This document shows, one piece after another, positions 5,711 through 53,371 of a DNA stretch of 64,000 nt. Both the position numbers and the translations under genes were made by a program. Within the stretch, counting starts at the first letter, position 1. Every line of letters starts with the position of its first letter. The stretch is from NCBI GenBank assembly GCA_039105265.1, contig JAPFFF010000006.1, positions 4,650,001-4,714,000 of the forward strand. Reading direction: 5' to 3'. The notes under the pieces are model-generated. The model did no database searches and had not been told where the DNA came from. It saw nothing but the letters and a program-made list of their open reading frames with translations. Source of the DNA: Tritrichomonas musculus (taxonomy: Eukaryota > Parabasalia > Tritrichomonadida > Tritrichomonadidae).

Positions 5711-6064
5711 TTAAGGTTCTCCTTTCAAATTCATAAGATAAAATTCAATGAGATTTCACAAATAAAATATACATAAATATCGTTTTTAAAAATGAATTAA
5801 AATATAAAATTTATATAGATATATATTTCAAAAGATTGAATAAAAATATATTTATGAAATCTTACCGATTTTGTTTTTTTCAGATAGAAATCATAGAATT
5901 AAAGATTCAATAAAATTTTGAATAAAATAAGATTTAATCGTTGAGGCCAAATATTTTTATTTTTCACCAAAACTTTTTCCGAAAAATGCTCTATTGAATT
6001 ATATATTCTATGAGTTAATTCAATATTGAATAATATACATTTTTTTAGGGAAGGAGAACCTTAA
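5711..6064. mobile_element. TTAA-flanked miniature inverted-repeat element
   Basis: TTAA at 5711-5714 is followed by GGTTCTCCTT. AAGGAGAACC at 6051-6060 is followed by TTAA at 6061-6064. This gives 10-bp perfect inverted ends (one more match follows a mismatch) and duplicated TTAA, as for piggyBac-like targets. The 354-bp unit has no coding capacity. Its right TTAA contains the stop codon of the leucine-rich repeat gene that ends at 6061. Other TTAA-GG-ended units occur at 9662-11499 and 10241-10489, suggesting one mobilising source. Confidence 0.6.
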
Positions 6065-9000
6065 GTAAATTCGATAACTTTAACTTTCGGAGAGAAATTG
6101 CATAAATGCACTTGCAATGACCTATGAACCATTACTTGATTCAATGCAGTACAACCATCGAAAGCATTTTTATTAGATTTATCGAATACGAAATTAGAAT
6201 GAATTACCACCCTTTCCAATGCAGTGCATCCTTTGAAAGCCATTTTTTCGATGCAATCCACAGAAGGAGGGATAGATATTTCCTTTAACGACCAGCAGCC
6301 TCTGAAGGCTAGTTTCTCAATTTTTACCAAAGAAGAAGGAAGATTTATTTCTGCCAATGAAGAGCAATTGTCGAAAGAGCCAGTCCCAATCACTTTGACC
6401 GGAGAAGATATTGAAATATCAACCAATTTGACACATTTTAAAAATGTATTTGGCTTTATTTCAGTTATTTGTGCATTAATTTCTACTTTTGTTAAATTGC
6501 AGCAACTTGAAAAGGCATACGTACCAATATATTTAACTGAAGAAGAAATTGAAATTTCACAAATATTAGATTTGGCGAATGCGAAGTCATCTATATAATT
6601 CAAAGAAGATGAAAACGTTAATTTTTTTAATTCATTACAATCTTTAAATGCATTACTTCCAATTGAAGTCACAGAAGTAAGATTTGTTACTTCAACCAAT
6701 GAAGAACAACCTTCAAAAGTACTTTGGCAAATTGTTTGTAATGAAGGAGAAAGATCTATGCGAGTTAAATTGTGGCAATTCTCAAAACAATTGAATCCAA
6801 TTGATGTTACAGAAGAAGGAATATCTATTGAAATTAATTCTTTACAATCTTTGAAAACACCATTTTCTATTTTGGTTATGGAAGAAGTAATTTTAATCTC
6901 TTTAAGTGAACTACATCCTCCAAAAGAGTTAGATCCAATTGATGTTACTGAAGAAGGAATATCTATTGAAATTAATTCTTTACAATCTTTGAAAACACCA
7001 TTTTCTATTTTGGTTATGGAAGAAGTAATTTTAATCTCTTTAAGTGAACTACATCCTTCAAAAGAGTTAGACCCAATTGATGTTACAGAAGAAGGAATTT
7101 TAATCTCTTTAAGTGAAATACATCCTTCAAAAGAGTTAGATCCAATTGATGTTACAGAAGAAGGAATTTTAATCTCTTTGAGTGAACTACATCCTCCAAA
7201 AGAGTTAGACCCAATTGATGTTACTGAAGAAGGAATATCTATTGAAATTAATTCTTTACAATCTTTGAAAACACCATTTTCTATTTTGGTTATGGAAGAA
7301 GTAATTTTAATCTCTTTAAGTGAACTACATCCTTCAAAAGAGTTAGACCCAATTGATGTTACAGAAGAAGGAATTTTAATCTCTTTAAGTGAAATACATC
7401 CTTCAAAAGAGTTAGATCCAATTGATGTTACAGAAGAAGGAATTTTAATCTCTTTGAGTGAACTACATCCTCCAAAAGAGTTAGACCCAATTGATGTTAC
7501 TGAAGAAGGAATATCTATTGAAATTAATTCTTTACAATCTTTGAAAACACCATTTTCTATTTTGGTTACAGAAGAAGGAATTTTAATCTCTTTAAGTGAA
7601 CTACATCCTTCAAAAGAGTTAGATCCAATTGATGTTACTGAAGAAGGAATTTTAATCTCTTTGAGTGAACTACATCCTTCAAAAGAGTTAGATCCAATTG
7701 ATGTTACTGAAGAAGGAATATCTATTGAAATTAATTCTTTACAATCTTTAAAAACACCATTTTCTATTTTGGTTACAGAAGAAGTAATTTTAATCTCTTT
7801 GAGTGAACTACATCCTTCAAAAGAGCTAGATCCAATTGATTCTAAAGAAGGTGAAAGTGTTACATTTTCTAGTTTAGAACAATTGTAAAAAGCAAGGTAA
7901 CCAATACTTTTTGCAGAACTTAAATTTGGTGCGTATAATAATGATTCACATGCATAAAAAGCGTTTTCTCCAATTGATTCCAGTGGAGATTTGGTAATAA
8001 ACTTCACTAAAGATGAACAATCACCAAAACATCTATTACTAATTGATTTTATTGAAGAAGACATGATTGTCACTTGAATTAGTTGTGAACACTTTTCAAA
8101 TGATGATTCTCTAATTGATTGGACTGAAGAAGGAATTGTTATTTCTTTTAATGATGTGCAGCAATAAAACGCCATTTTTTCAATTGTTTCTAGTGATTCT
8201 GGAAGTGATACTTTTCTCAATGATGTACATGATCTAAAAAGGCCTTCTTTAATAGATATAATATTAGAAGGAATCTTGATTTCTCTTAATTTCTCACATG
8301 ATATTAAAGCGTTATCATTAAGTTCAATGTTTTTCTGATCTAATAAATATTCAACAATTTCAACATTGTTTCTTCGTCCTGCTGTATGTATCGCTTTTTC
8401 TCGTTTTTGTTCATGACGAAACCTATTTACATTTATTTCGTTAATATCAACTTTCTTTTCTTTAACATAAAATTTAACAAATTCGAGATAGTCAAATTCA
8501 ACAAAATAAAAGAATAATGATAAATCATCAATAAAATCTTTTTCTTCATCATCAAGAACAGCTTGAATTAAATCATAATTATGATAACGAAAAGTAGTTA
8601 TAATGCTCTTTTCTTTAGAAGTAAGATTTGGTTTATCATGTTGATTTTTTATTTGATAATAATAATACTCTTCTTCTTCTTCTTCTTCTTCTTTTTCCTT
8701 TTCTTCTTCATTTGGCATTTTGAATAAATTATCTCGAATGTAATGCGCAATGTTATTATGGTGACATTTAATTGATTCATTGTAACATTCTTTATATGTT
8801 TCATCTTCAGGAATTACTTTTTTTTCTTCAAGAAAATGAATCAATTCTGGATTATTCGAATGAATTCCATAAATCCACAATGATGGACTCAAATTGGCTT
8901 TATTCATAAACAAATAACGAATTATTTGCATTGATCCAAAGAAACATGCATATTCAATCATTGATATTTTTTCCTTTGTCATCAAAAAGTGGTTAGTTTC

Positions 9001-9636
9001 ATAAATTGAATGACTAATTTGACCATTTGATGAAATATTCTTTCTATTGAAATTAACAATGAAGTCATCAATTGAATCGTTTCGAATTAAACTGCAAAGA
9101 TAATCATCATTCTCCCCAATTGTTAACTTATCGTCTTCAATTGATGCATAACCGTTTAAATGCATTTCTGCTTCAATAGATTTTTTCATATCACTTGTTA
9201 ATTTTTCTTTGATCTCATTGAAAAAGTAGAATTTGTAATTAACGTATTTTTTATTCAAAATAAAGTCGTGAAGGATCTCGTCATCAATGACAACTATCTT
9301 TTGCTGTATTAAAAAAAGAAGAACTCTTTTATTGTGTTTGAAAAAATTAAAAATTCGTGAATTTGAAAAAGTCTGTTTGATTTGATCCTTATAATGATTT
9401 AAGATTTTTTCTGTTCTCTGAATTAAATTTTGATGGCGACTATGATTTTTGGAGATTTTGTTAATTATTATCATAATTTCATGGATATTATCTGAATTTT
9501 CGAAAATATTTTGATTTTTGATATTATTTACTAAATTGATAAAATTTTCATCTTCGTTTTCATCTTCTGATTCTAGGAAATCAATAATAAGATCGTAAAT
9601 ATTTTTCATAGCAACGCAATGCTCTTTTATTTCCAT
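6061..9636 (-). CDS. DUF3447/ankyrin-type N-terminus fused to BspA-like leucine-rich repeats
   Basis: This 1191-residue protein starts at the ATG at 9636. Residues 1-310 have the trichomonad DUF3447 layout: NHYKDQI, SRIFNFFKHNKRVLLFLI, then IEYACFFGSMQIIRYL and ESIKCHHNNIAHYI. An acidic and poly-Tyr stretch (about 310-330) and one ankyrin-like unit follow (about 410-440). From about residue 455 to the end there are some thirty 23-residue BspA/LRR_5 repeats of the form IPSSVTSIGSNSFEGCSSLKEI. The central repeats are almost identical. No signal peptide or membrane segment is seen, so an intracellular binding or scaffold role is more likely than a surface adhesin. The stop codon falls in the TTAA of a neighbouring repeat element, so the original C-terminus may be lost. 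The N-terminus is paralogous to the pseudogene at 45048-48945. Confidence 0.9.
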   Translation of the reverse strand: MEIKEHCVAMKNIYDLIIDFLESEDENEDENFINLVNNIKNQNIFENSDNIHEIMIIINKISKNHSRHQNLIQRTEKILNHYKDQIKQTFSNSRIFNFFKHNKRVLLFLIQQKIVVIDDEILHDFILNKKYVNYKFYFFNEIKEKLTSDMKKSIEAEMHLNGYASIEDDKLTIGENDDYLCSLIRNDSIDDFIVNFNRKNISSNGQISHSIYETNHFLMTKEKISMIEYACFFGSMQIIRYLFMNKANLSPSLWIYGIHSNNPELIHFLEEKKVIPEDETYKECYNESIKCHHNNIAHYIRDNLFKMPNEEEKEKEEEEEEEEYYYYQIKNQHDKPNLTSKEKSIITTFRYHNYDLIQAVLDDEEKDFIDDLSLFFYFVEFDYLEFVKFYVKEKKVDINEINVNRFRHEQKREKAIHTAGRRNNVEIVEYLLDQKNIELNDNALISCEKLREIKIPSNIISIKEGLFRSCTSLRKVSLPESLETIEKMAFYCCTSLKEITIPSSVQSIRESSFEKCSQLIQVTIMSSSIKSISNRCFGDCSSLVKFITKSPLESIGENAFYACESLLYAPNLSSAKSIGYLAFYNCSKLENVTLSPSLESIGSSSFEGCSSLKEIKITSSVTKIENGVFKDCKELISIDIPSSVTSIGSNSFEGCSSLKEIKIPSSVTSIGSNSFEGCSSLKEIKIPSSVTKIENGVFKDCKELISIDIPSSVTSIGSNSFGGCSSLKEIKIPSSVTSIGSNSFEGCISLKEIKIPSSVTSIGSNSFEGCSSLKEIKITSSITKIENGVFKDCKELISIDIPSSVTSIGSNSFGGCSSLKEIKIPSSVTSIGSNSFEGCISLKEIKIPSSVTSIGSNSFEGCSSLKEIKITSSITKIENGVFKDCKELISIDIPSSVTSIGSNSFGGCSSLKEIKITSSITKIENGVFKDCKELISIDIPSSVTSIGFNCFENCHNLTRIDLSPSLQTICQSTFEGCSSLVEVTNLTSVTSIGSNAFKDCNELKKLTFSSSLNYIDDFAFAKSNICEISISSSVKYIGTYAFSSCCNLTKVEINAQITEIKPNTFLKCVKLVDISISSPVKVIGTGSFDNCSSLAEINLPSSLVKIEKLAFRGCWSLKEISIPPSVDCIEKMAFKGCTALERVVIHSNFVFDKSNKNAFDGCTALNQVMVHRSLQVHLCNFSPKVKVIEFT
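6780..7860. repeat. 69-bp coding repeats in 276-bp higher-order units
   Basis: The basic 69-bp unit encodes one 23-residue leucine-rich repeat. Four units form a 276-bp block present twice nearly unchanged (about 7010-7285 and 7286-7561). Partial copies lie on both sides, at about 6820-7010 and 7560-7840. Near identity at the DNA level points to recent unequal crossing over or gene conversion. Confidence 0.85.
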
Positions 9637-20653: not shown

Positions 20654-23473
20654 ATGACTATCCCTCCTCCTTCACAACAAGTTTCTATTATCCGCAATCT
20701 CGAAAAAACAACAAAGCTTACACCAAACGAACCCGCTTATCTTATTTCATCGAAGTGGTTTAATACTTGGAAAATTGCTGTTGGATTTTCCAATTTTCAA
20801 CCAAAAGACATAGTTGTTACTGATATTGATAATAATGATTTATTAGATGGCGATTCTATTCGACCTGGGACTGCAGAAGGCCTCGATTACGATATAATAA
20901 CAATGAAAGTATGGGATAAATTGCATAATTGGTATAACGGAGGCCCAGAAATCAAAATTCCAGTTGAATATGATGATGTTGAAAAACGTAATGTAGCTGT
21001 TGTTCGCAAACCAGTATTTCAAATTTATTATCGAGATGGACGACGACCTTTTCCTTATTCAATATATCAAAAAATTGGCGATTTAAAAGAAATTGCATGC
21101 AAAAGTTTTGAATGTGATCCCAAACGAACTCGTTTATGTGATTTCGATGGAAGAATTCGTAATACAGCTCTTGACGATACCAAAACTCTTAAGTATTATC
21201 ATATTACAAATGATGATCATTATCTTTTACTCGAATCTCAACAAGAAGATGGCACATGGATTACTGTTACACATAATACCATAGCACCTTCAAATTCAAC
21301 TCCAATTCATACTGTTACTTTTAATTCCAACAGTTCTAGCAGTTCCACCGCAAATTCAATACCCAGTAATGACGGCAAAGGAATCTTATTAAATTCTTCC
21401 TCATCAATGCAAACCATAGTTGAAAACGCCTCTGAACCGGGCATTTGCGGTATTATGAATATTGGAAACAGTTGTTATATTAATGCAGCTCTTCAATGCT
21501 TATGTCATACTCAATGCGTTTGTGATTTTTTCCTCAAAGATGAAAAATGGCGTCAACAAATCAATCATTCTAATAAGAAAGGCACTGATGGAGAAGTTAC
21601 GGAAAAATTCTATGAAGTTATGCAAGAATTATGGAATGGAAATAACAACAAAATTTCAAGTGGGCCACGTGAGCTCAAATTCACAATTGGTCATTTAAAG
21701 GCTAATCAATTTTCAGATACCAGTCAACAAGACTCTCATGAATTTCTAATGATATTAATGGATATCATGCATGAAGACCTTAATCGAATCAATCCCCTAA
21801 GTGTTCCCAAGGATTTAGAATCAGTTTATGGTGATGGCACCAATGATCTAGAGACAGCAGAGAAATCCTGGGAGCGTCATAAAAAGATCAATGATTCCTT
21901 TTTTGTAGATAATTTTCATGGTCTTTTAAGATCACGAATGATTTGTCCCAAATGTCATAAAACGACCATTGTTTTTGATCCCTTTATGTCATTAACCATT
22001 CCACTTCCAATTCCACGAACATTATCGCCACGATTTACCTTTGTACCATATGATTTAACACAGCCACGAGTAGAGATGCAACTTAGTGTTGTATCACCTG
22101 CCACTGTTCTTGAATATGTTGAAGAACTCAGCCAACGACTTAAACGAAAGATATCAGATATAGTATTTGCCGAGAGGGCCCCCAATTCAATGGCCCTTAC
22201 GTGGAGACAATCGATATCAGCGCAAGGAGCTCCATGTTTTGCCTATGAACTTCCTCCTCATGGAGAAAATTCAGTTTTTGCATGTGCACGATTAGTTGCG
22301 TCCAAACAGATCAAAGAAACCCCAGCTATTACTGAATTAGACGGCATTTTCTTAGTTGAATTGCCATCTGAAGATGCCACTGAAGAAGATGTTCAAATTG
22401 CATGTGAGAAACGATTTCAACCTTTTTGGCATTCAACGCCAGGAGGCGAAGCAGACATTTTAAGCAATCCGTTTTGTGCCGAATTCCACTCCTCTCTCTG
22501 CAAGGACACCAAGAACAGCTTCAAAGAAGGAGAAAAAATGAAAGCACGGCCAAAAGTTCATCCTTTAATTGAGCTTCGATTTGATCGCGAAAGACACCTG
22601 AAAAGTGTCTCATCGACGCCGATAGAAGTAGTTTTAAATCCCGATGTAATCAAGGATCCTTCTAATTTTGATTGGTCGATGCTGCATAAAAAAGTCATTG
22701 ACTCAAGTGAGACAGAAATTGAAAAGAGGAAAAAAGTGACACTTGAAGAATGCTTCAAAATATTCCAACACGACGACGTCCTCGACGTCAATAATAAATG
22801 GCACTGCCCGCATTGCAACCAATTTGTTTGTGCCAACAAAAAAATGGACGTTTGGAAATCGCCTGAAATTCTTATCGTCCATTTGAAGCGGTTTCTTCAT
22901 ACAGCTTCGAGCCACTTGAAGCTTGACATAAACGTCAAGTATCCGAGCGTTCTTGACATGACAAGCTACATAAATGCGCCAAAGCCTGCCGACGAAGAAG
23001 TCAAGTACAACTTGTTCGGCGTGATCGAACACATCGGAAGCATGAGTGGTGGCCATTACACTGCCCATTGCTATCATCATATAAAGAAAAAATGGTTCTT
23101 CTTTAACGATGACGTCGTTAAACCGGCAAGGCCGGCTGCGGCTCACAATAAGGAAGGATACGTCTTGTTTTATTTGAGATCAAACGACCATTCATCAAAG
23201 AAATTCCAGAAAGAGAAGATTAACGTAACCGAGGAAATGAAAAAACAAATGTTCATGCCTAAAATTATTTTGCCCGTCGTCAATTTGGAACAGAAACAAA
23301 CTAGAAAATTAACTAGCAAGATCCCAATGAGATCTCAGTCTGCGGCTTCAACGGGAAAAATTAATTTTAACTTGAACGATATGAGAAATAACTTGCTGAG
23401 GGTGTCAAAGCCTTTTCAACAAAATCTAGAAAAAAATGATGAACAAGTTAAAAAGGACGATGAAACAAAATAA
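20654..23473 (+). CDS. Ubiquitin carboxyl-terminal hydrolase (USP4/11/15-like)
   Basis: 939 residues. Residues about 15-110 resemble a DUSP domain (YLISSKWFNTWK) and about 118-200 a ubiquitin-like domain. The USP catalytic core starts with the Cys box GICGIMNIGNSCYINAAL (Cys274). The His box SGGHYTAHCY places His801, followed by WFFFNDD, which supplies the Asn/Asp. Zinc-knuckle cysteines (CPKC near 432 and CPHC near 718) are present. An insert of roughly 250 residues with a second ubiquitin-like stretch splits the core, as in USP4/15. The protein should remove ubiquitin from substrates in the cytosol or nucleus. A Lys/Gln-rich tail of about 95 residues follows. Base composition changes inside the gene: the 5' two-thirds is AT-rich, while about 22.5-23.2 kb is clearly richer in G+C. 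Confidence 0.95.
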   Translation: MTIPPPSQQVSIIRNLEKTTKLTPNEPAYLISSKWFNTWKIAVGFSNFQPKDIVVTDIDNNDLLDGDSIRPGTAEGLDYDIITMKVWDKLHNWYNGGPEIKIPVEYDDVEKRNVAVVRKPVFQIYYRDGRRPFPYSIYQKIGDLKEIACKSFECDPKRTRLCDFDGRIRNTALDDTKTLKYYHITNDDHYLLLESQQEDGTWITVTHNTIAPSNSTPIHTVTFNSNSSSSSTANSIPSNDGKGILLNSSSSMQTIVENASEPGICGIMNIGNSCYINAALQCLCHTQCVCDFFLKDEKWRQQINHSNKKGTDGEVTEKFYEVMQELWNGNNNKISSGPRELKFTIGHLKANQFSDTSQQDSHEFLMILMDIMHEDLNRINPLSVPKDLESVYGDGTNDLETAEKSWERHKKINDSFFVDNFHGLLRSRMICPKCHKTTIVFDPFMSLTIPLPIPRTLSPRFTFVPYDLTQPRVEMQLSVVSPATVLEYVEELSQRLKRKISDIVFAERAPNSMALTWRQSISAQGAPCFAYELPPHGENSVFACARLVASKQIKETPAITELDGIFLVELPSEDATEEDVQIACEKRFQPFWHSTPGGEADILSNPFCAEFHSSLCKDTKNSFKEGEKMKARPKVHPLIELRFDRERHLKSVSSTPIEVVLNPDVIKDPSNFDWSMLHKKVIDSSETEIEKRKKVTLEECFKIFQHDDVLDVNNKWHCPHCNQFVCANKKMDVWKSPEILIVHLKRFLHTASSHLKLDINVKYPSVLDMTSYINAPKPADEEVKYNLFGVIEHIGSMSGGHYTAHCYHHIKKKWFFFNDDVVKPARPAAAHNKEGYVLFYLRSNDHSSKKFQKEKINVTEEMKKQMFMPKIILPVVNLEQKQTRKLTSKIPMRSQSAASTGKINFNLNDMRNNLLRVSKPFQQNLEKNDEQVKKDDETK

Positions 23474-24153: not shown

Positions 24154-27100
24154 ATGTCTCTAATGTCTAATAGAGCTAATGAAATCGACATTACGAATTT
24201 CAACATTAAAGAGTCAATCAACGAATGTACTGGAACAACGCTTTTTAAGGTCAACGAAAAAGGAACAAAAGAAGATTTTGTTGCCAAAGTTATTAAATGT
24301 GGCGATGATGAAGAGAAATACGATAAAAGTACTCAAGAAGAGATTAAAATCATGATGGATATCAAACATCCAACAATTATAAAATTATACGGATATTCAA
24401 AATTCGATTTTAATAAAGATCCCAATTATACAATCATAATGGAACTATTCAAAAATGGATAACTTGAAAATGTTATACAAAACTTTATGAAAAATATTCC
24501 TCCAAAAAACTATACAAATACTTCACGCCAGATAATTTTATCAGGAGTTGCTCAAGGAATGAAATACCTCCATGATCACAACGTTGCACTTAATTACTTG
24601 AAACCTAGCAAAATTTTGTTGGATGAAAAATATCATCCAAAAATTGATCACATTCACAAAATAAAAGATTTAAAAAAAGAGTTCTCTACGAATAATTTAG
24701 ATGCATACTCGATACCATACATTGCTCCCGAAGTCATCTTATCAAACGAATATAATGAAAAATCAAATGTTTATTCATTTGGTATCATAATGTATGAGGT
24801 TGTTACGAACTCGTTTTCTTATCCTGAACTTTTACTCGGAACTATGAACTCATACCAATTCATGGAAAAAGTTGTGATACAAAATCACCGTCCCAAATTT
24901 CAAAATCAGATCAACATTTCTATTCAGCAATTAATTGAACAGTGCCTGTCAAGTGATCCTAATAAAAGACCGACTTTTGGTGATTTATTTAATAAACTTG
25001 CAAATCAAAATATTGATGAAAAAAACAAGTATTTACTCGATTCAATCGATATGAATCAATTTGAAAATTATATCAAAGAAATTACTCATATTGTTGATCC
25101 TTTAAAACAATTTTGTGAAAATTATGAAGAGACGCAGAGCGACGTAGAAATACTGATAAAACAATTTCAAACAAATCATGAAACAATTTTATCATTTAAA
25201 AAAGAAAATCAACAAATCGTCGATGAATTTGATTCCATTATAAAAGAAAACGAACATTTTAATGAAGATTTGTATCAATTGATAAAGAAAGCGGATCTCT
25301 TACAAAAGCAAATTACTACTTATTATGAAAAGAATCAAAGATATCTCAAAATTATCAAATCAATTGAACAAGAAAATGAGAAGAATCAACAAATTTGTGG
25401 GAATTTGATAAATAATATTGAAATAAAACAACAAAAGCTTTACATTATAAAACAAAAAAATGAAAATTTTCTTAAAAAAATCGAATCAATTAAAAGTGAA
25501 AGTTTTGGTAACAGTGAATCTTATTTGCAATTTGAAAAGAAAAATGGATTACAACAGCAAGAAGGTTTCAATATTGATGAAGAAAATAATACTTGCTTAA
25601 TTAAGACAGAGTTAATTAAAAACAAAAACGAAGGAAATTACAAATTATGCTTGTTACTGGAAAAAGAAAAAGAGACTCCACAAATAACAAATCAGCACAT
25701 TGAGAAGTTCCATAAAAATGCAGAAATGATTGAAAAAGAAAATGAAGAGAATCATAAGTACTTTTTATTATTGAAAAGACAAAATGAATTAATCCAAGAA
25801 AAAATTGTAAAACAACAACAATTAAACCAAGAGATTTTTCAAGAGATCAAATCAATCAATCAAAAATTTAAAGATAATAAGAGCCTTTGGTTTAGTTTAT
25901 ATAATGAAAATGAGACAATTACACAAGAAAGCCAAAATTTATTAAACAATAAAGAAAATGAAGAATTACAAGAAGAAAAAGAAAAAGAGGATACAAATAT
26001 CATTTTACCAAAATTACAACAAAAAAACCAACAACAATACAAGTCAAAAATAGCAAAATTACGCATGAATATTGAAAATATCAAAGTTTTCTCTAATATA
26101 AAACAAACACAAAATTTTGATATCAATTTAGTTTTTGATACCAAAACATCAAACAAATATATTGCAAAAACTTTTAAAAACTTTGATAATGATTTCGATT
26201 TAAATAAGTATATTTTCATGCTCCACCAATTTCAACACGTAACAATTGCCAAATTTGCTGGGTATTCTGAATTGGATTTTTCGGGAAAACCAAATCCAAC
26301 TCTTTTTATACAATATGCTAATAAAGGCTCTCTAAATGACAATAAAGAAAATGATATGAAATTTGGCACAATTTTTCTTCTTGGAATTGCACGAAGTATG
26401 ATGCTGCTACATAAGCATAACATTGTTCATGGCGACCTTAAGCCAAGCAAAATTTTGCTGGACGATAATTTGTATCCATATTTATCAGATCTAGGAATTT
26501 CCCAATTTAATAATTCGAAGATCTCAAATACATTTCTTTATACAGCTCCAGAAGTGCTTAAAAATCAAAAACTTTGTTTAAAGTCGGATGTTTATTCATT
26601 CGGAATAATAATGTATCAAATAGCAACTAATTTTAACAATACATCAAATTTTGAGTCATTAACTTGCACTCATCAAAAAGAATTAATAATAAAAGGATAT
26701 CGTCCACATTTCGCATCACCAATAAATACAATATTGGAGAAATTAATAAAGAGGTGCTGGTCAGAGAATCTTGATGAAAGGCCATCTTTTGAAGAAATTT
26801 TTTATTCACTTGCATACGACACAAACTGCTATATTAATGGAATTCTAACAGATCATGTATTGAAGTATATTGATTGTATTAAAAAAGATTTAATCTTCTG
26901 TAAAGTTTGCCAAGAAAATATTGAAACTAATGATCTTCTGTATTATTCTGGATATCCTTATCACAGGGAATGCATTGAGTGTGCCGAATGCCATAAAAAA
27001 CTTTCAAATAATGAATTGAATGATTTCAAATGCATTACACCTGGAATGTTCATTTGCAAAGAACATTATGATATCATTCAAAATAACTCAACACCTTCTC

Positions 27101-28782
27101 AAAATATACTTGAAATTTATCATGATAAAAAGATAGAAAACATGGCCGATGAAGTTTTTAATCCACCAATATATAACGACGATAATATTCTGCAATATCA
27201 ACCTGATGATGTATTTATCGATTCTGATATGATTCAAAATTCATTCCAAATAAACAAACCTTATGATTGCATTATTCCTACAGTTAAATTTCATTGTGAT
27301 AAACCTCTTAATGAAATTGATTTCAAAAAGCTTCAAGAATTGCTTGGTGATGATGTGATTATACTTAAAATTGAATCAGGCAGTATATTTTTAAAAATAG
27401 CTTTTCTTACTCATAGCAGATTATCTAAGATTAGAGACAAGTTTAATCAATTTTTGGAACCATTAAAGAATAAATTAAATTCATCAATAGGAAAATCAAT
27501 TGTTGGCAATTTCGTAAATGATCCTGAAAACAGCATTCCAAACGATCAAGATATCAATAACATTTACAACATGAAATCAATCAACATTCTTCAAAACACT
27601 TTAGATCTAGATAAAATTGAAATGCAATACATTGAAAATGAAGTTAACTCTTTATTATTAAGAGAAAATACACACCAAAACTGGTCTTTTTTGTTTAGGA
27701 ACAAGAATTTATTTGAGGATGCTGAGATTCAAGTTCGCAAAGATATTCAAAATAATGCTTTTGAAATGATAATTACAGGACAAACAATAATTGCAAATAG
27801 ATATTTAGATGAATACAACAAAATAAAAACGAAAATTCAATCTGGGAATACTTTTGAAGGCTTTCTTTACCATGGATCAAGAATCAACAATCATCAAAAA
27901 ATTGTTGATCAACATTTTTTAATGCCGGGCGTAGATGCTGTCCAACAATTAGATATGGGCTACTACGGAAAGGGTATCTATGCTACAGAGAATTTGTTTT
28001 ATGCTGCCGTTTATGGAGCTGGCTATCATATTTTAAATGTAAATGAAAAAACTTCTGTTTTTTGCTGTAGAGCAATTTATAACAAATCAAAAGTTAAAGA
28101 ACTCTATGATCTTTCATGCTATGGCCAAAAAATTCAAACTGACATTGCAGGCGATTTTGGAATTCATCATTCAATGGTTGGAAACAAAAAAGCATTTCAT
28201 CCAATATCAAATTCAGAGAAAGAAGTGAACTCAATTGTTTCTGAAGAATTCGTTTTCGCTAATAAATTCCAAATCATCCCAATTTGCTCATTTACAGTAA
28301 TGAGATCTGATCACTTGATACTTTGGAAGGATGAGAATATTGAAAACAATGAAAATTCCGGTTATTTGAAAGAACTCTCAAAGAAAATTGAAGCCAACAT
28401 TTACTTCAAAAAATCGGTTGATGACGCACTGGATCTTATCAAATTAAAAAAACACAATCAAATCAAACTAATCACAAATGGAGGAATTGGATTGACAGGT
28501 AAAAAGCTGATTGAAGAATCAAGAAAAATAATTAAATCAAATTTTGTTTGTTTAGTCTTTGCAAGAGATTCAAATCACTATAAATGGGTATCTGAAATCG
28601 AAAACGTTCTTTTTACTACAAATTCTGCTTATTTTAAAGAATTTGCAGAATTGAAAATGATTAAAAAAGATGTTCTCGATTTTATTCATAAACTTGAAAA
28701 AAATACTTCATTTAAGTTTAAGATCAATGAAAATGAGCTTTTGAATTACCCACTTTTTAAAAATCACATACCAATTGGATAA
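24154..28782 (+). pseudogene. Pseudokinase-coiled coil-kinase-LIM-PARP fusion with one internal stop codon
   Basis: One frame of 1543 codons is interrupted only by TAA at 24460-24462 (codon 103). Order: a first kinase-like domain (residues 10-290) lacking key residues (ALNYLKPSK where HRDLKPxN is expected, and IDH where DFG is expected), so a pseudokinase; a coiled coil (about 310-630); a second kinase domain (about 640-890) with HGDLKPSK (Asp761), SDLG (Asp779) and TAPEVL; a LIM-type zinc finger (about 910-975, starting CKVC); a linker domain; a PARP catalytic domain (about 1140-1395) with triad His1240 (YHGS), Tyr1276 (GKGIY) and Glu1365; and an unnamed C-terminal alpha/beta domain of about 140 residues. 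The family could couple phosphorylation to ADP-ribosylation. The stop sits in the Gly-x-Leu turn after the hinge, where a Ser would be usual. It may be a recent nonsense mutation, a sequence error or read-through. The 1431-codon part from 24487 alone lacks the first N-lobe. Confidence 0.85.
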
Positions 28783-38952: not shown

Positions 38953-40497
38953 CTAAAACTGATCATTAAGTTTTTGAAGTTGATCTTCAAGCGCCGTTGC
39001 TTTAGCTTGAACTTTCTTTAATTTTTCTATTGATTTATTAAGCAACTCTTCTGCTTCATTAGCTTCTCTTTTTTTAGAAATAATGTTTTGAATAATAGTA
39101 TAATAGTTAAGAATGTTATTTAGCCAAGCATAGATGTTTGCACATGCAGATGAAGATCTTATAACATCTGATTCTTTAAAGGTCCATTTTGCAACTTTTT
39201 GTTTGGTTAATTGCATTATATTATCATTCCAATTTTCATGAAGATGGTGAAGTTTGTACATGAAAACATTCGTGTTACATATGAGTTTTTTTGCTGCTTT
39301 CCAAGATAAATCAGGCGCAGGTCTTCCTCCTTCTGAAAGGATAAGAACGATGGCTTCCATGACATCTCCCACTTTACCTGGTGGAGATGAGAAGGATGAA
39401 AGTTCAGTTATACATTTTCTATCAATACAATCAAGAGCTGCCATAGCCCTTACTCTAAGAATTTGTTCTTTCCTAAGTTCTTCAAATACAAATGCTTGTC
39501 TTTCTTCTGCTTGTTCTTTTTCACGTTGAGCGGCTATTAATTCCATCTTCGCAATTGCTGTATCTTGTAAAATTTGATCAATAAGTGCAGCTCGTTCAGC
39601 TTGTTTATCAGCGATTATTTTAGCTTGTGCTTCCAACTTCTTCTTCATGATGACCGCTTCTTTGTATGAATCTTGAGAACCTTTACTATATTGCTGTTGG
39701 CTGATGATGATTGTTTTTTTGTATAATGAAATGGGCTCCATATAAGACTCTTGTGTTGCATAGTTATGTTTTTTTTCAGCTTCAAAATGTTCTGATGAAT
39801 TTTGAATAACTTTTGATTGCGGTTGCTTCTTGCAATTTATAAGATTGAATACTTTAATTAAATCGGCACCAATTTCAGCCATATTGTAGTTGCTGGCTAA
39901 ATTAAATCGGAAAGCATTGCAGCCTTCCAAATATGATGCAAGGCGAACTAGATTCTTCTTGCCTGAACGTCCAAGAAAGATAAATAACATGCTTTTTTGT
40001 GGATTGTTGATACCTTTTGCAATTTGAAGAATGTTTTCAATGGCATCATCGAAAAGAGAGTGATTCATAACGGAGTAGTTTGCTAATTCTAATGAAACTA
40101 TTGGTGTAATACATTTATCAAATACTGAATCATCACCATCTGGTGGAAAAGCACAAAGCATTTGCTCATCTCTTGTCGTAACGATTTTAAGGATCTTTAT
40201 TATCTGTGAAATAACGATATCCATCACCTTCTGATAATGAACAAGATAAACAATCCTATCATTATAAACATGAATACTATCTGTAGAAGGAAGTTGTATC
40301 ATTTGTTCCGGCGTGTTAACAACATTAGGCATTGCATGAAAAACACCTTGAAGCAATTGACATTCATCATGAAGAATGAATATAAAATTAAATTTAATAG
40401 CGGTTGGAATGAATGTCTTTGTAATTTCTTTGTTGATGTTGGTAAATGGTCGAATGTATTCGTAATCAAAATCAATCATGTATAAAATAAAATACAA
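38953..40497 (-). CDS. Free-standing dynein heavy chain piece: degenerate AAA4 plus stalk
   Basis: 514 residues. Residues about 90-215 follow dynein AAA4: SLFDDAIENILQIAKGI, then SMLFIFLGRSGKKNLVRLAS, FRFNLASNYNM and AEIGADLI. The P-loop is altered (LGRSGKKN for GxGGSGKQS). Residues 270-360 form the outgoing coiled coil of the stalk. SSPPGKVGDVMEAIVLIL (about 370-388) and AAKKLICNTNVFMYKLHHL match the microtubule-binding tip. SSSACANIYAWLNNILNYYT and the final coiled coil match the returning stalk. A real dynein heavy chain is about 4,500 residues. This frame is uninterrupted but lacks the motor ring and tail, so it is either a fragment that has kept its frame or a new microtubule-binding protein. 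The start may be the internal Met at residue 7 (MIDFDYEYI). Confidence 0.75.
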   Translation of the reverse strand: MYFILYMIDFDYEYIRPFTNINKEITKTFIPTAIKFNFIFILHDECQLLQGVFHAMPNVVNTPEQMIQLPSTDSIHVYNDRIVYLVHYQKVMDIVISQIIKILKIVTTRDEQMLCAFPPDGDDSVFDKCITPIVSLELANYSVMNHSLFDDAIENILQIAKGINNPQKSMLFIFLGRSGKKNLVRLASYLEGCNAFRFNLASNYNMAEIGADLIKVFNLINCKKQPQSKVIQNSSEHFEAEKKHNYATQESYMEPISLYKKTIIISQQQYSKGSQDSYKEAVIMKKKLEAQAKIIADKQAERAALIDQILQDTAIAKMELIAAQREKEQAEERQAFVFEELRKEQILRVRAMAALDCIDRKCITELSSFSSPPGKVGDVMEAIVLILSEGGRPAPDLSWKAAKKLICNTNVFMYKLHHLHENWNDNIMQLTKQKVAKWTFKESDVIRSSSACANIYAWLNNILNYYTIIQNIISKKREANEAEELLNKSIEKLKKVQAKATALEDQLQKLNDQF

Positions 40498-45047: not shown

Positions 45048-48000
45048 TCATGCATTTAGATTTGTTGCTTTTTTTTCTTTAAAAATTTGTAAAATTTCTT
45101 TATTATTTTTCTCAACTGCCAAATCATAAGCTGATTTATTATTCAATATTTTAAATAAAAACTGAATTGAAATAATATATTTGAATAGTATTGAAAGATA
45201 TGATTTTCAATTTCATTCAAAGATTTCATTTCAAATTTTATAAAAAATTAAAAAAAATATATTCAAGATTGACATCAAATTTGTCATTCATTAATAAAAG
45301 TTTCACAATTTCGATGTTCTCTTTTTCAACGGCCAAATATAATGCTGTTTTATTAATACATATTACATTAAAATTTCATTCAAAGATATGATTTTGAATT
45401 GTATTGAAAGATATGATTTCGAATTCTATTGAAAGATATGATTTTGAATTTCATTGAAAGATATGATTTCGAATTATATGAAAAATTATGAAAAATATTA
45501 AGAATATTGATGTCAAGTTTGTCATTCGTTAATAAAAGTTTCACAATTTCAATGTTTTCTTTTTCAACGGCCAAATATAATGCGGTCTTATAAATTTCTT
45601 TTATATCAAAATTTCATTCAATGATATGATTTTAAATTTCATTGAAAGATATGATTTCGAATTCTATTGAAAGATATGATTTTGAATTCTATTGAAAGAT
45701 ATGATTTCGAATTATATGAAAAATTATGAAAAATATTAAGAATATTGATGTCAAGTTTGTCATTCGTTAATAAAAGTTTCACAATTTCAATGTTTTCTTT
45801 TTCAACGGCCAAATATAATGCGGTCTTATAAATTTCTTTTATATCAAAATTTCATTCAATGATATGATTTTAAATTTCATTGAAAGATATGATTTCGAAT
45901 TCTATTGAAAGATATGATTTTGAATTTCATTGAATGATATGATTTAGAATTTCATTGAAAGATATGATTTTGAATGATATCGAAAGATATGATTTCGAAT
46001 TTTATAAAAAATTATGAAAAATATAACCAACATTGATGTCAAGTTTATCATTCGTTAATAAAAGTTTCACAATTTCAATGTTTTCTTTTTCAACGGCCAA
46101 ATATAATGCGGTCTTATAAATTACTATTACATCAAAATTTCATTCAATGATATGATTTTGAATTCTATTGAATGATATAATTTTGAATGATATTGAAATA
46201 TATGATTTTGAATTCTATTGAAAGATATAATTTTGAATTTCATTGAAAGATATGATTTTGGATTTCATTGAAAGATATGATTTTGGATTCTATTGAAAGA
46301 TATGTTTTTGAATGTAATTGAAAGATATGATTTTGAATATCATTGAAAGATATGATTTCGAATTCTATTGAAAGATATGATTTTGAATTTCATTGAAAGA
46401 TATGATTTTGAATTGTATTGAAAGATATGATTTTGAATTGTATTGAAAGATATGATTTCGAATTCTATTGAAAGATATGATTTTGAATTTCATTGAAAGA
46501 TATGATTTCGAATTTTATGAAAAATTATGAAAAATATTAAGAATATTGATGTCAAGTTTATCATTCGTTAATAAAAGTTTCACAATTTCAATGTTTTCTT
46601 TTTCAACGGCCAAATATAATGCGGTCTTATAAATTTCTATTATATCAAAATATCATTCAATGATATGATTTTGAATTTCATTGAAAGATATGATTTTGAA
46701 TGACATTGAAATATATGATTTTGAATTCTATTGAAAGATATGATTTTGAATGACATTGAAAGACATGATTTTGAATTCTATTGAAAGATATGATTTTGAA
46801 TTCTATTGAAAGATATGATTTCGAATTCTATTGAAAGATATGATTTCGAATTCTATTGAAAGACATGATTTTGAATTCTATTGAAAGATATGATTTTGAA
46901 TTCTATTGAAAGATATGATTTCGAATTCTATTGAAAGATATGATTTTGAATGACATTGAAAGACATGTTTTTGAATTCTATTGAAAGATATGATTTTCAA
47001 TTTCATTGAAAGATATGATTTTGAATTGTATTGAAAGATATGATTTTGAATTCTATTGAAAGATATGATTTTGAATATCATTGAAAGATATGATTTCGAA
47101 TTTTATAAAAAATTATGAAAAATATTAAGAATATTGATGTCAAGTTTGTCATTCGTTAATAAAAGTTTCACAATTTCAATGTTTTCTTTTTCAACGGCCA
47201 AATATAATGCGGTCTTATAAATTGTTATATATCAAAATATCATTCAATGATATGATTTTAAATTTCATTGAAAGATATGATTTTGAATTCTGTTGAAAGA
47301 TATGATTTTGAATTCTATTGAAAGATATGATTTTGAATTCTGTTGAAAGATATGATTTCGAATGTTATTGAAAGATATGATTTTGAATGATATTGAAAGA
47401 TATGATTTCGAATGTTATTGAAAGATATGATTTTGAATGTTATTGAAAGATATGATTTTGAATGTTATTGAAAGATATGATTTTGAATTCTATTGAAAGA
47501 TATGTTTTTGAATGAAATTGAAAGATATGATTTTGAATGATATTGAAAGATATGATCTTGAATATCATTGAAAGATATGATTTTGAATTCTATTGAAAGA
47601 TATGATTTTGAATTCCATTGAAAGATATGATTTTGAATGTAATTTAAAGATATGATTTTGAATGTAATTGAAAAATATGATTTTGAATAGTATTGAATGA
47701 TATGATTTCGAATTTTATTGAAAGATATGATTTTGAATGATATTGAAAGATATGATTTTAACATAATTAAATGAATGTCAATTGAAATTGTATTAACAGA
47801 ATATTAAAATTTCTTTTTTATTTATATTTATGGCTTTGTATTTCAAAAAGATATCAACAAGTGCACAATAATCGTACTTACACAAGTTCCAAAATGAAGA
47901 TTCACTAATGAATTCTTTTTTCAAAAAGGCGAAATTATGGTATTTGATACATTGTTTGATTGAATCCTTTGAATTTTCTTCATCATTTTGCAAGAAGTTG

Positions 48001-49903: not shown

Positions 49904-52900
49904 ATGACAAAACTAGAGGACACACCTACGCCAAAATTATACGAACTTTTGAGCATGATAGAAAATGAGAAGATAACAGAAGGCGATCTCGATATTGACA
50001 GCAAGGACGAGCTCATAGATATTATCGCTTTTGATATTCTACAACTTGGTTACAATGGTGATAACAATTATGAAGCTATGTTCTGGTTCATGAAAGGTAG
50101 AGAACAAACGAAAAACACAAATGAAGTCCCAAATGTTCCTCCTCCAAGAGAAATTCCACGCTATATCGACAATAATGATTATTACTTTTTGAAGAACATC
50201 AAGAACAACATATGGAGGAAGGTCACTAAGGATGATTCTTTTGTGAAGATAACTTATAACGATTTCATTAAGCTCAAGGACGAGCAGGAAAAAATAGTGG
50301 ACGCAATTATGAAGAAACTTTATGATTCCCCTGAGTATTGGCATATAAATTTCGAGCAACTTACGAACAGAGGTAGAGAATTAATATTTCCTGCTCTTCA
50401 TAATTTCTTTAACACTATTGTCAAAAATTTCTCTGTCACAAATCAATATAAGCTCAGGTTCAAAGTCAATAATGAATGGCGCACTTTACCTCTCACTTCT
50501 GAAAACTTCAACAAGCTTATGGAAAACTTTACGAAGAAACATTTTATATTCGACATGGATGATGTCAAGCCTGAGTACTTTTATGAGAAGGGCAGTATGG
50601 AACTCCCAGAATGGTCTCTCTTTTCTCAGCTCATTTTCAGCAAAACCAAAAATGTCAGAAGTAATGCAGATCGCGGAGGTTCATTCTTTCAATTCTTAGT
50701 CAAAGAGAGCTGCCCAAAAGAGATAGTAAAATACCTGACTCGCCTACAAATTTTCGACAATCTTGCTAACAACAAAGGTACACAACGAAAAGAACTTGAT
50801 GACTGTTGTTTCATATATGCTCTTCAACAAACAGGGTCCTATGATGAAGAAACCTTAAATCAAATGCGGCTAAGAATCAACAACAGATATCTCTCCAATT
50901 CTGCTATCAACAATCTATGTCAGGAATTTAAGATCCACATCAGCGTTTCTTACATAAATGAAGACGCGAATTCCAAAAACAAAAAGAAATCACTAGGGAA
51001 GAATTCATATATAGGAGTCGAGAAAGCTGAGCCAAATCGCACTCACAAATTCAACATTTACGAGAAACACTACTTTATAGAAGAAAAGACTCCCTTTTCC
51101 ACATACTACATCAATAATCTCACTTCTCTTACACCAGACAAGGCGAGCATGGAGTACAAGCAAGGACACTGGATAAAGGCTAGGTATTTCATAAGTTCTT
51201 CCAATTTAGTACGCACACTTATGAAGGAAAATTATTTCCGACCTTTAAACTTTGGAGATGGCTGTATTCTCAAAACTGTTTTCAATGATGATATCAAGAA
51301 GGATGTTTCTAGAATTAACTTAGAATATGATGAAAAGTCCTGCACCCAACTTATAAAGCCCAGAACATTTAAGAAGAAGGGAGGAGAGGAGAAACAAGGT
51401 GAAAAGTCATATTGGTATTGTGATTCTGAGGCAGATACTTCTGGTGATATTCATCGTCCATACATGTTTGTTCTCCAATCTCAAGATGGTACAATAACGA
51501 AAACCTTTAAAGGTGAGGATTGTAGTGTTTCATTTCTGGATTTCCTTCCTGATTTCTCTGTAGTGTACTTCCATAACTTAGCTTACGATATCAGATTTCT
51601 TTGTTCTTACGGCATAAGGAAGTCTGTCATTAAGGGTAACAAATTTATGAAAGGCACAATTATCTATAAGTCTAAAACCCTCTACTTCCGAGACACACTT
51701 CCTATACTCTCATGCAAACTTTCACAACTACCATCAATGTTTAATCTCGATAGTGGACAGAAAGAAGTTTTCCCCTACAAGTATTATACCATGGAAAGGC
51801 TATCCAAAAATATAGGTGTAATAGAGGAAGCAGGAGAGAATGAAGATAAGAGATGGACAGAAGAGACGAAACAACAATTCCGCCACAACATAGATATTAT
51901 AGGCTGCCGTCTCTCTGATACCACTTTTGATATGTACAAGTATGCAGAATTTTATTGTGCCCAAGATGTGAACATTTTGCGACAGGGATTTAATAAATTT
52001 AGAGATGGTTTTATAGAAGATTTCAACATAGATCCTTTCAACTTTGTCTCCATCTCTTCTCTCGCGAATGAAGTTTTCAATAACAAAGTTTATTATGGTC
52101 ACGATTTATATAAAATTGGTGGTGTTCCTAGATATTTCTGTGCACATGCTATCTACGGCGGGAGGTGTATGACGGCGTACAACAAGAAATGGCACACACA
52201 AAAGAAGGTATGTGATTTCGATGCAGTTTCTTTATATCCGTCTGCTATGGCACGCCTATGGACCGTAAGTGGCACTCCTAAAGTTATAGAAAAAGAGAAT
52301 CTCAACATGGAATTCCTATCTAAGCAGAGTGCGTATGTTGTCGAGATTGAAGTTACAAAAGTTAACAAACATTATCCTTTCCCTCTTCTTGTTCGTAAAG
52401 TAAATAACCTGAACTTAAATGATGATAATATAGATGAGCCTGTGACGATGATAGTAGATAACATTTACCTTACAGACCTCATACGTTTCCAGAAAATAGA
52501 GTTCACATTGCTGAGAGGGTACTACTGGGATGGTAAGAAAGACTACACAATTCGCAAGGTCATTAGAGAAATCTTCAACAAGAGGCTCGAATACAAGAAG
52601 CAAAAAAATCCTCTCCAAAACTTATACAAACTTATCATGAACAGCTGCTATGGTAAAACTATAGAAAGGCCCACAGATAAAGAATTTAAGTATATGTACG
52701 AGGGAGAAGAGCTAGACAAGTACTGGAAGAAGAATTATATGAAGATCAAGGAAGATGTACAGCTCCATAACTCAAAACTGCACTCCCTAAAAGTCCTAAA
52801 ACCTATAGATGACCATTTTAATTTCTCCCTCTTAGGAATACAAGTTCTGTCCATGAGTAAGAGAATTATGAACGAAGTTATGTGCCTTGCCTACGATATT

Positions 52901-53371
52901 GGATGTCACATATACTACCAAGATACAGATAGCATGCATATAGAGCTCGCAGATTTACCAAAACTTGAGAAAGCCTATAAAGAAATGTACGGAAGAGAAC
53001 TCATAGGTAGTGATTTAGGACAATTCCACTCTGATTTCCCAACTATCAACAAGCATGATGAAATTCCTGTCGCCATTGAAAGTTACTTCCTGATGAAGAA
53101 AATGTATATTGACAAACTTACAGATTCCACAGGTGATATAGATTTTATGATTCGCGGTAAAGGTCTAACATTAAATTCTATAAAACATGCTGCAAAACAA
53201 TTTGGTGGTGATTATATGAAACTTTACGAGCATCTCTACAATGGAAACTCAGTAATGTTTGATCTTACTCAGGGGCAGCCATGTTTCAAGTTCAATTCCA
53301 ACATGACTATCTCTACACTTACGAAATTCCAAAGAAAGATCAAAACAAATTACGAAGAAGGATATGAATGA
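49904..53371 (+). CDS. polB: Protein-primed family B DNA polymerase of Maverick/Polinton
   Basis: 1155 residues. The N-terminal 480 residues are poorly characterised; within them RKELDDCCFIYALQQTG (about 293-309) resembles a conserved block seen in such polymerases. The 3'-5' exonuclease motifs follow: CDSEAD (near 507), HNLAYDIRF (near 560) and YCAQDVNILRQGF (near 685). Polymerase motif A is DAVSLYPS (Asp773), motif B is KLIMNSCYGK (Asn913, Tyr916), and motif C is YQDTDSMHIE (Asp1007, Asp1009). All catalytic residues are intact. The protein should replicate the element from a protein primer at its ends. It is the first gene inside the left terminal region and converges with the integrase gene downstream. 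Confidence 0.95.
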   Translation: MTKLEDTPTPKLYELLSMIENEKITEGDLDIDSKDELIDIIAFDILQLGYNGDNNYEAMFWFMKGREQTKNTNEVPNVPPPREIPRYIDNNDYYFLKNIKNNIWRKVTKDDSFVKITYNDFIKLKDEQEKIVDAIMKKLYDSPEYWHINFEQLTNRGRELIFPALHNFFNTIVKNFSVTNQYKLRFKVNNEWRTLPLTSENFNKLMENFTKKHFIFDMDDVKPEYFYEKGSMELPEWSLFSQLIFSKTKNVRSNADRGGSFFQFLVKESCPKEIVKYLTRLQIFDNLANNKGTQRKELDDCCFIYALQQTGSYDEETLNQMRLRINNRYLSNSAINNLCQEFKIHISVSYINEDANSKNKKKSLGKNSYIGVEKAEPNRTHKFNIYEKHYFIEEKTPFSTYYINNLTSLTPDKASMEYKQGHWIKARYFISSSNLVRTLMKENYFRPLNFGDGCILKTVFNDDIKKDVSRINLEYDEKSCTQLIKPRTFKKKGGEEKQGEKSYWYCDSEADTSGDIHRPYMFVLQSQDGTITKTFKGEDCSVSFLDFLPDFSVVYFHNLAYDIRFLCSYGIRKSVIKGNKFMKGTIIYKSKTLYFRDTLPILSCKLSQLPSMFNLDSGQKEVFPYKYYTMERLSKNIGVIEEAGENEDKRWTEETKQQFRHNIDIIGCRLSDTTFDMYKYAEFYCAQDVNILRQGFNKFRDGFIEDFNIDPFNFVSISSLANEVFNNKVYYGHDLYKIGGVPRYFCAHAIYGGRCMTAYNKKWHTQKKVCDFDAVSLYPSAMARLWTVSGTPKVIEKENLNMEFLSKQSAYVVEIEVTKVNKHYPFPLLVRKVNNLNLNDDNIDEPVTMIVDNIYLTDLIRFQKIEFTLLRGYYWDGKKDYTIRKVIREIFNKRLEYKKQKNPLQNLYKLIMNSCYGKTIERPTDKEFKYMYEGEELDKYWKKNYMKIKEDVQLHNSKLHSLKVLKPIDDHFNFSLLGIQVLSMSKRIMNEVMCLAYDIGCHIYYQDTDSMHIELADLPKLEKAYKEMYGRELIGSDLGQFHSDFPTINKHDEIPVAIESYFLMKKMYIDKLTDSTGDIDFMIRGKGLTLNSIKHAAKQFGGDYMKLYEHLYNGNSVMFDLTQGQPCFKFNSNMTISTLTKFQRKIKTNYEEGYE

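Follow-up and report, generated by a model that had tools for sequence, protein, structure and literature searches.

Does the locus at 24154-28782 (+) of the 64,000-nucleotide stretch of DNA analysed here (the window), which comes from the mouse gut protist Tritrichomonas musculus, encode one intact protein that links phosphorylation with ADP-ribosylation? The original prediction had read it as such a scaffold, with two kinase-like domains, a coiled coil, a LIM zinc finger, a PARP domain and a novel C-terminal domain. Domain identities and order withstood closer analysis, as did the classification of the first kinase as a pseudokinase; the intact scaffold is not supported for this gene, since the frame is cut within kinase 1 and kinase 2 falls short of catalytic features. 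The locus is, in our view, rather probably one copy of a T. musculus ADP-ribosyltransferase family, in which a C-terminal LIM-X-PARP-pseudo-receiver module is joined to an exchangeable N-terminal part.

A reading frame interrupted within the first kinase

Translation of the locus contains a single stop, a TAA at 24460-24462 (+) after 102 codons, and therefore the proposed single frame of 1542 residues does not exist. The frame that remains open (24463-28782) comprises 1439 residues, ending in a C-terminal tail with its stop codon (28753-28782 (+), from the translation), and the first in-frame ATG past the TAA, at 24487, leaves 1431 residues with all codons open. Upstream of the stop, the 102-codon front part of kinase-like domain 1 (24154-24459 (+)) matches PF00069 with an E value of 4.4e-9 and keeps the VAIK Lys and the helix-C Glu, the glycine loop being degenerate. 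The rest of the domain (24463-25008 (+); delimited by sequence comparison, its end by eye) carries LNY in place of HRD with its catalytic Asp, as expected of a pseudokinase. Sequence comparison moreover showed that the kinase homology on both sides crosses the TAA gap-free and in the same frame, and that at this position an ordinary amino acid is found in a related kinase of T. musculus. The simplest account is that kinase 1 is decaying in this gene; any product accordingly most likely begins after the stop and would consist of a kinase-like recruiter and the PARP module.

Decay might also extend to the entire locus, which would then be a family pseudogene giving rise to no functional protein. 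The TAA is consistent with this, as is P0021, a sister protein of 1278 residues with 93% identity over that length, whose predicted start likewise lies downstream of most of kinase 1. Furthermore, partial or stop-containing relatives are numerous genome-wide: a search with the C-terminal 477 residues gave 77 matches across the T. musculus genome, 41 of which (window included) cover at least 430 residues, three of these with an internal stop, and the remaining 36 span fewer than 430 residues, many with stops, indicating much decay in the family. Against a pseudogene speak the 1431 open codons from 24487 and a PARP domain identical to that of P0021 in 190/190 residues, even if this identity could stem from gene conversion, with selection as the alternative. 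In comparison with L019, the closest paralogue in the genome, dN/dS amounts to 0.27 for kinase 2, 0.21 for PARP and 0.11 for the pseudo-receiver, values that are unreliable with dS above 1 (for LIM-X, dS is saturated) and that would nevertheless be unlike those of a freely decaying kinase 2. On balance, we regard a pseudogene as rather unlikely.

Less probable still is that the TAA represents an assembly error or only one allele, with an intact longer gene in the population. The unbroken kinase homology would fit this scenario, and stops are uncommon in matches to the kinase front, being present in 3 of the 150 scored in the genome. However, the DNA of kinase 1 and the coil has no second copy in the T. 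musculus assembly (the next best match reaches 71% over 322 bases), and the sister protein as predicted also lacks most of kinase 1.

Charged linker and second kinase

The two kinases of the window gene are separated by a charged linker (25018-26082 (+), assigned by eye from the translation), a probable coiled coil by the same judgement, in which 315/355 residues are identical to P0021. Kinase-like domain 2 follows at 26083-26817 (+), with matches to PF07714/PF00069 and 223/245 residues identical to P0021. As predicted, it is recognizable as a kinase with both Asp in place (HRD as HGD, DFG as DLG), in addition to the VAIK Lys; what the prediction missed is that the glycine loop is absent (T/Q/F at the loop positions) and that the helix-C Glu is replaced by Tyr. 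The retained Lys and Asp residues, together with the low dN/dS relative to L019, speak against simple decay of this domain, which may have kept weak activity. That a single intact scaffold links an active kinase to an active PARP is nonetheless very unlikely: the Lys and both Asp of kinase 2, the complete PARP triad and the relative L023/P0022 (see below) are in its favor, but the window frame is stopped by the TAA, kinase 2 lacks both the glycine loop and the helix-C Glu, P0021 and L019 both have HGN, the N lobe of L019 being also shortened by a stop, and P0001 begins downstream of the kinase N lobe.

The C-terminal module

The LIM zinc finger (26899-27069 (+)) was borne out by a PF00412 score of 27.4 bits (cut-off 22.9) and profile matches to solved LIM domains. 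LIM domains have eight ligands with a typical spacing, and the window sequence fits this consensus with C-x2-C-x17-H-x2-C-x2-C-x2-C-x21-C-x2-H. It is followed by a small domain of the beta-alpha-beta-beta-alpha type, termed X (27262-27483 (+); residues 127-200 of an AF2 model, low confidence), which is identical to P0021 in 84/85 residues.

The PARP/ART catalytic domain (27712-28311 (+)) goes unreported when the whole window protein is scanned with Pfam; two cut-out pieces score 26.9 and 28.5 bits against PF00644 (cut-off 26.7), and some relatives stay below this threshold (P0001, 23.9 bits; P0004, 25.1 bits). Foldseek returned a best match with an E value of 1.2e-9, the fold matches comprising PARP1, PARP4 and tankyrases, and PARP16 was found as a profile match. 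Scores above the Pfam cut-off and the ART fold thus place the domain among the PARP/ART proteins, in line with the initial assignment. The H-Y-E triad is likewise complete: in the numbering of the 1439-residue frame, it consists of H1137 (27871-27873 (+)), Y1173 (27979-27981 (+)) and E1262 (28246-28248 (+)), which are conserved in 33/34, 34/34 and 34/34 aligned modules, respectively.

The C-terminal domain (28312-28752 (+)), initially thought to be a new module, turned out to have a receiver-like (CheY-like) fold, with 143/156 residues identical to P0021. It lacks the phospho-acceptor Asp: at the corresponding column, picked from secondary structure, 31 aligned sequences have Asn (21), Ser (7) or Thr (3). 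It therefore differs from response-regulator receivers in 31/31 cases and can be likened to the pseudo-receiver of CikA (2j48). In the T. musculus genome, PF00072 detects no receiver domain.

The composition of this module is not fully fixed, as several paralogues have no LIM or a reduced one, and one ORF has a pseudo-receiver without PARP. Based on the alignment, inspected by eye, LIM is missing in L033, L041, L048 and L050 and partial in L031 (1216), L035, L045, L046, L047 and L049. P0051 combines a ubiquitin-like match (22.7 bits, below the cut-off of 25.4) with PARP and pseudo-receiver and has no LIM match. In L060 (78-1664 (-)), a 529-residue ORF contains a coil-like stretch and the pseudo-receiver with neither PARP nor LIM in frame, and Pfam gives a single weak match below cut-off. 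The pseudo-receiver hence usually, though not always, accompanies PARP. Three short PARP-pseudo-receiver copies with near-equal scores lie within about 142 kb on C41 (1049426, 1087493 and 1189883) and are probably recent duplicates.

Genomic surroundings

Upstream of the PARP locus and on the same strand, a DUSP-containing ubiquitin carboxyl-terminal hydrolase is encoded at 20654-23473 (+). The window also contains an ORF in which ankyrin repeats precede a long BspA-type LRR_5 region (6061-9636 (-)), another that holds part of a dynein heavy chain (its D4 and the microtubule-binding stalk; 38953-40479 (-)) and an ORF with a DNA polymerase B of the organellar and viral type (49904-53371 (+); PF03175, E value 1.8e-39), which we take to be possibly part of a Maverick-type element. 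The block at 46001-48000 shows a GC skew of 0.386, all other 2-kb blocks falling between -0.129 and 0.056.

Related genes and exchange of front ends

The same domain order recurs in relatives: P0021 matches the window gene from the last part of kinase 1 onwards, up to the C terminus, and the paralogue L019 has the order kinase-LIM-PARP-CTD, which argues that the architecture is more than a chance juxtaposition. Neither kinase 1 nor the coil was found in the 1.9 kb upstream of L019.

From a sample of 35 family regions, the N-terminal parts of 28 ORFs were scanned with Pfam; 18/28 have a front-end domain above cut-off, and the other ten have none. Kinase front ends occur in L019, L022 (with AAA), L023 (with Sel1), L035, L049 (with LRR_5), L050, L051 and L052, and BspA-type LRR_5 front ends, besides that of L049, in L032, L040, L047 and L048. 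According to the accessible text of PMC11978803, kinase is the most prevalent domain of the T. musculus genome (3411 copies) and LRR_5 is present in 2,217 of its proteins, and given this abundance, the share of both among the front ends is by itself unsurprising. Other members begin with ubiquitin (L020), an E2 domain (L045 and L046, whose VWA matches are below cut-off), RCC1 (L041), profilin (L025) or three thymosin repeats (L026). The latter two belong to families that bind monomeric actin, making actin a possible target of ADP-ribosylation. At the opposite end, 4/33 T. musculus ORFs (L025, L031, L048 and L050) terminate in C-x-x-x, possibly a prenylation signal.

Among 11 kinase-like domains of ten T. 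musculus family genes (including the split gene L044 and L022, the N lobe of which aligns poorly), Lys, helix-C Glu, HRD Asp and DFG Asp are all kept only in L023 and L050. In L050, the His of the PARP triad is lost to Ser. L023/P0022 retains the full triad along with the four kinase residues, though not the glycine loop, and judged by these residues would be the best candidate for a dual kinase/ADP-ribosyltransferase, a more plausible one than the window gene.

When 34 modules were placed on a quick tree, the nine rows with kinase required at least five changes of state. The DNA of L021 (C64) and L023 (C41) is 96.4% identical along a 2519-base stretch that leads from a 36-base coding repeat array through the module (dS 0.05, dN/dS 0.38), and sequence comparison found no significant similarity between their N-termini outside the repeat; that of L021 has no Pfam match, and that of L023 comprises kinase and Sel1. 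At the sequence level, this looks like a recent front-end swap with a visible hinge, the 36-base repeat being the likely site of recombination. The N-terminal dN/dS of 0.70 for this pair is meaningless, as it results from the forced alignment of unrelated parts. Across five close pairs, dN/dS for modules or whole ORFs ranges from 0.34 to 0.48, with 0.48 for L027/L029, 0.45 for the L040/L032 module, 0.42 for the L031 pair and, for L045/L046, 0.34 (module) and 0.48 (whole), the N-terminal part of the latter pair reaching 0.53.

Taken as one copy of this family, the window gene suggests a mechanism in which the PARP domain would transfer ADP-ribose from NAD+ onto partners recruited by the N-terminal part, with LIM and pseudo-receiver acting as adaptors or regulators. 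In the clade of the window gene, the kinase-like domains would not phosphorylate but serve to bind partners or nucleotide. Genes would recombine to give new combinations, at least once through a coding repeat.

Comparison with known systems

LIM kinases combine LIM and kinase within one protein, and so does the window gene; in contrast to LIM kinases, its LIM domain lies behind the kinase and is linked to PARP, and the kinase is degenerate. By its ART fold and H-Y-E triad, the family belongs to the PARP/ARTD proteins (PF00644), from which it differs by the flanking LIM and pseudo-receiver and by front ends of the kinase, profilin, thymosin and RCC1 type. Even within T. musculus, ten PARP ORFs that score higher (L009-L018) have no match to the pseudo-receiver profile (10/10). 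As far as the accessible texts of two surveys go, T. vaginalis PARPs carry PfamB_2311 or UBA and PARP is fused to UBCc in other eukaryotes (PMC2964712, PMC4245714). Specifically, PMC2964712 names no domain other than PARP and PfamB_2311 in T. vaginalis clade 6E, which shares with the T. musculus family that both are parabasalid PARPs, and ubiquitin-linked PARP6/8 homologues carry UBA or UBCc (PMC4245714), resembling in this link the ubiquitin of L020 and the E2 of L045/L046. The terms LIM domain, receiver and profilin are absent from the main texts of both surveys as accessible to us, and thymosin from that of PMC4245714; kinase is mentioned twice in each, neither time as a fusion. A literature search, with most subscription journals outside its reach, likewise yielded no description of the kinase-LIM-PARP-receiver chain, in agreement with the original prediction, which knew of no such described architecture.

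Implications

In this family, a single genome joins an ADP-ribosyltransferase core to many recruiters, and in one pair the joint, a coding repeat, is visible. The core adjoins a receiver-type fold that PF00072 misses in the T. musculus genome. It is possible, if somewhat doubtful, that exchangeable recruiters fed by recombination aim one ADP-ribosylating core at kinase partners, ubiquitin/E2 pathways, monomeric actin and LRR ligands, and that some members such as L023 may be true kinases and ADP-ribosyltransferases in one. Such swapping of recruiters can be likened to the domain swaps of polymorphic effectors or NLR-type sensors. Since candidates follow from the profilin, thymosin, ubiquitin and E2 front ends, the targets of these protist PARPs become directly testable.
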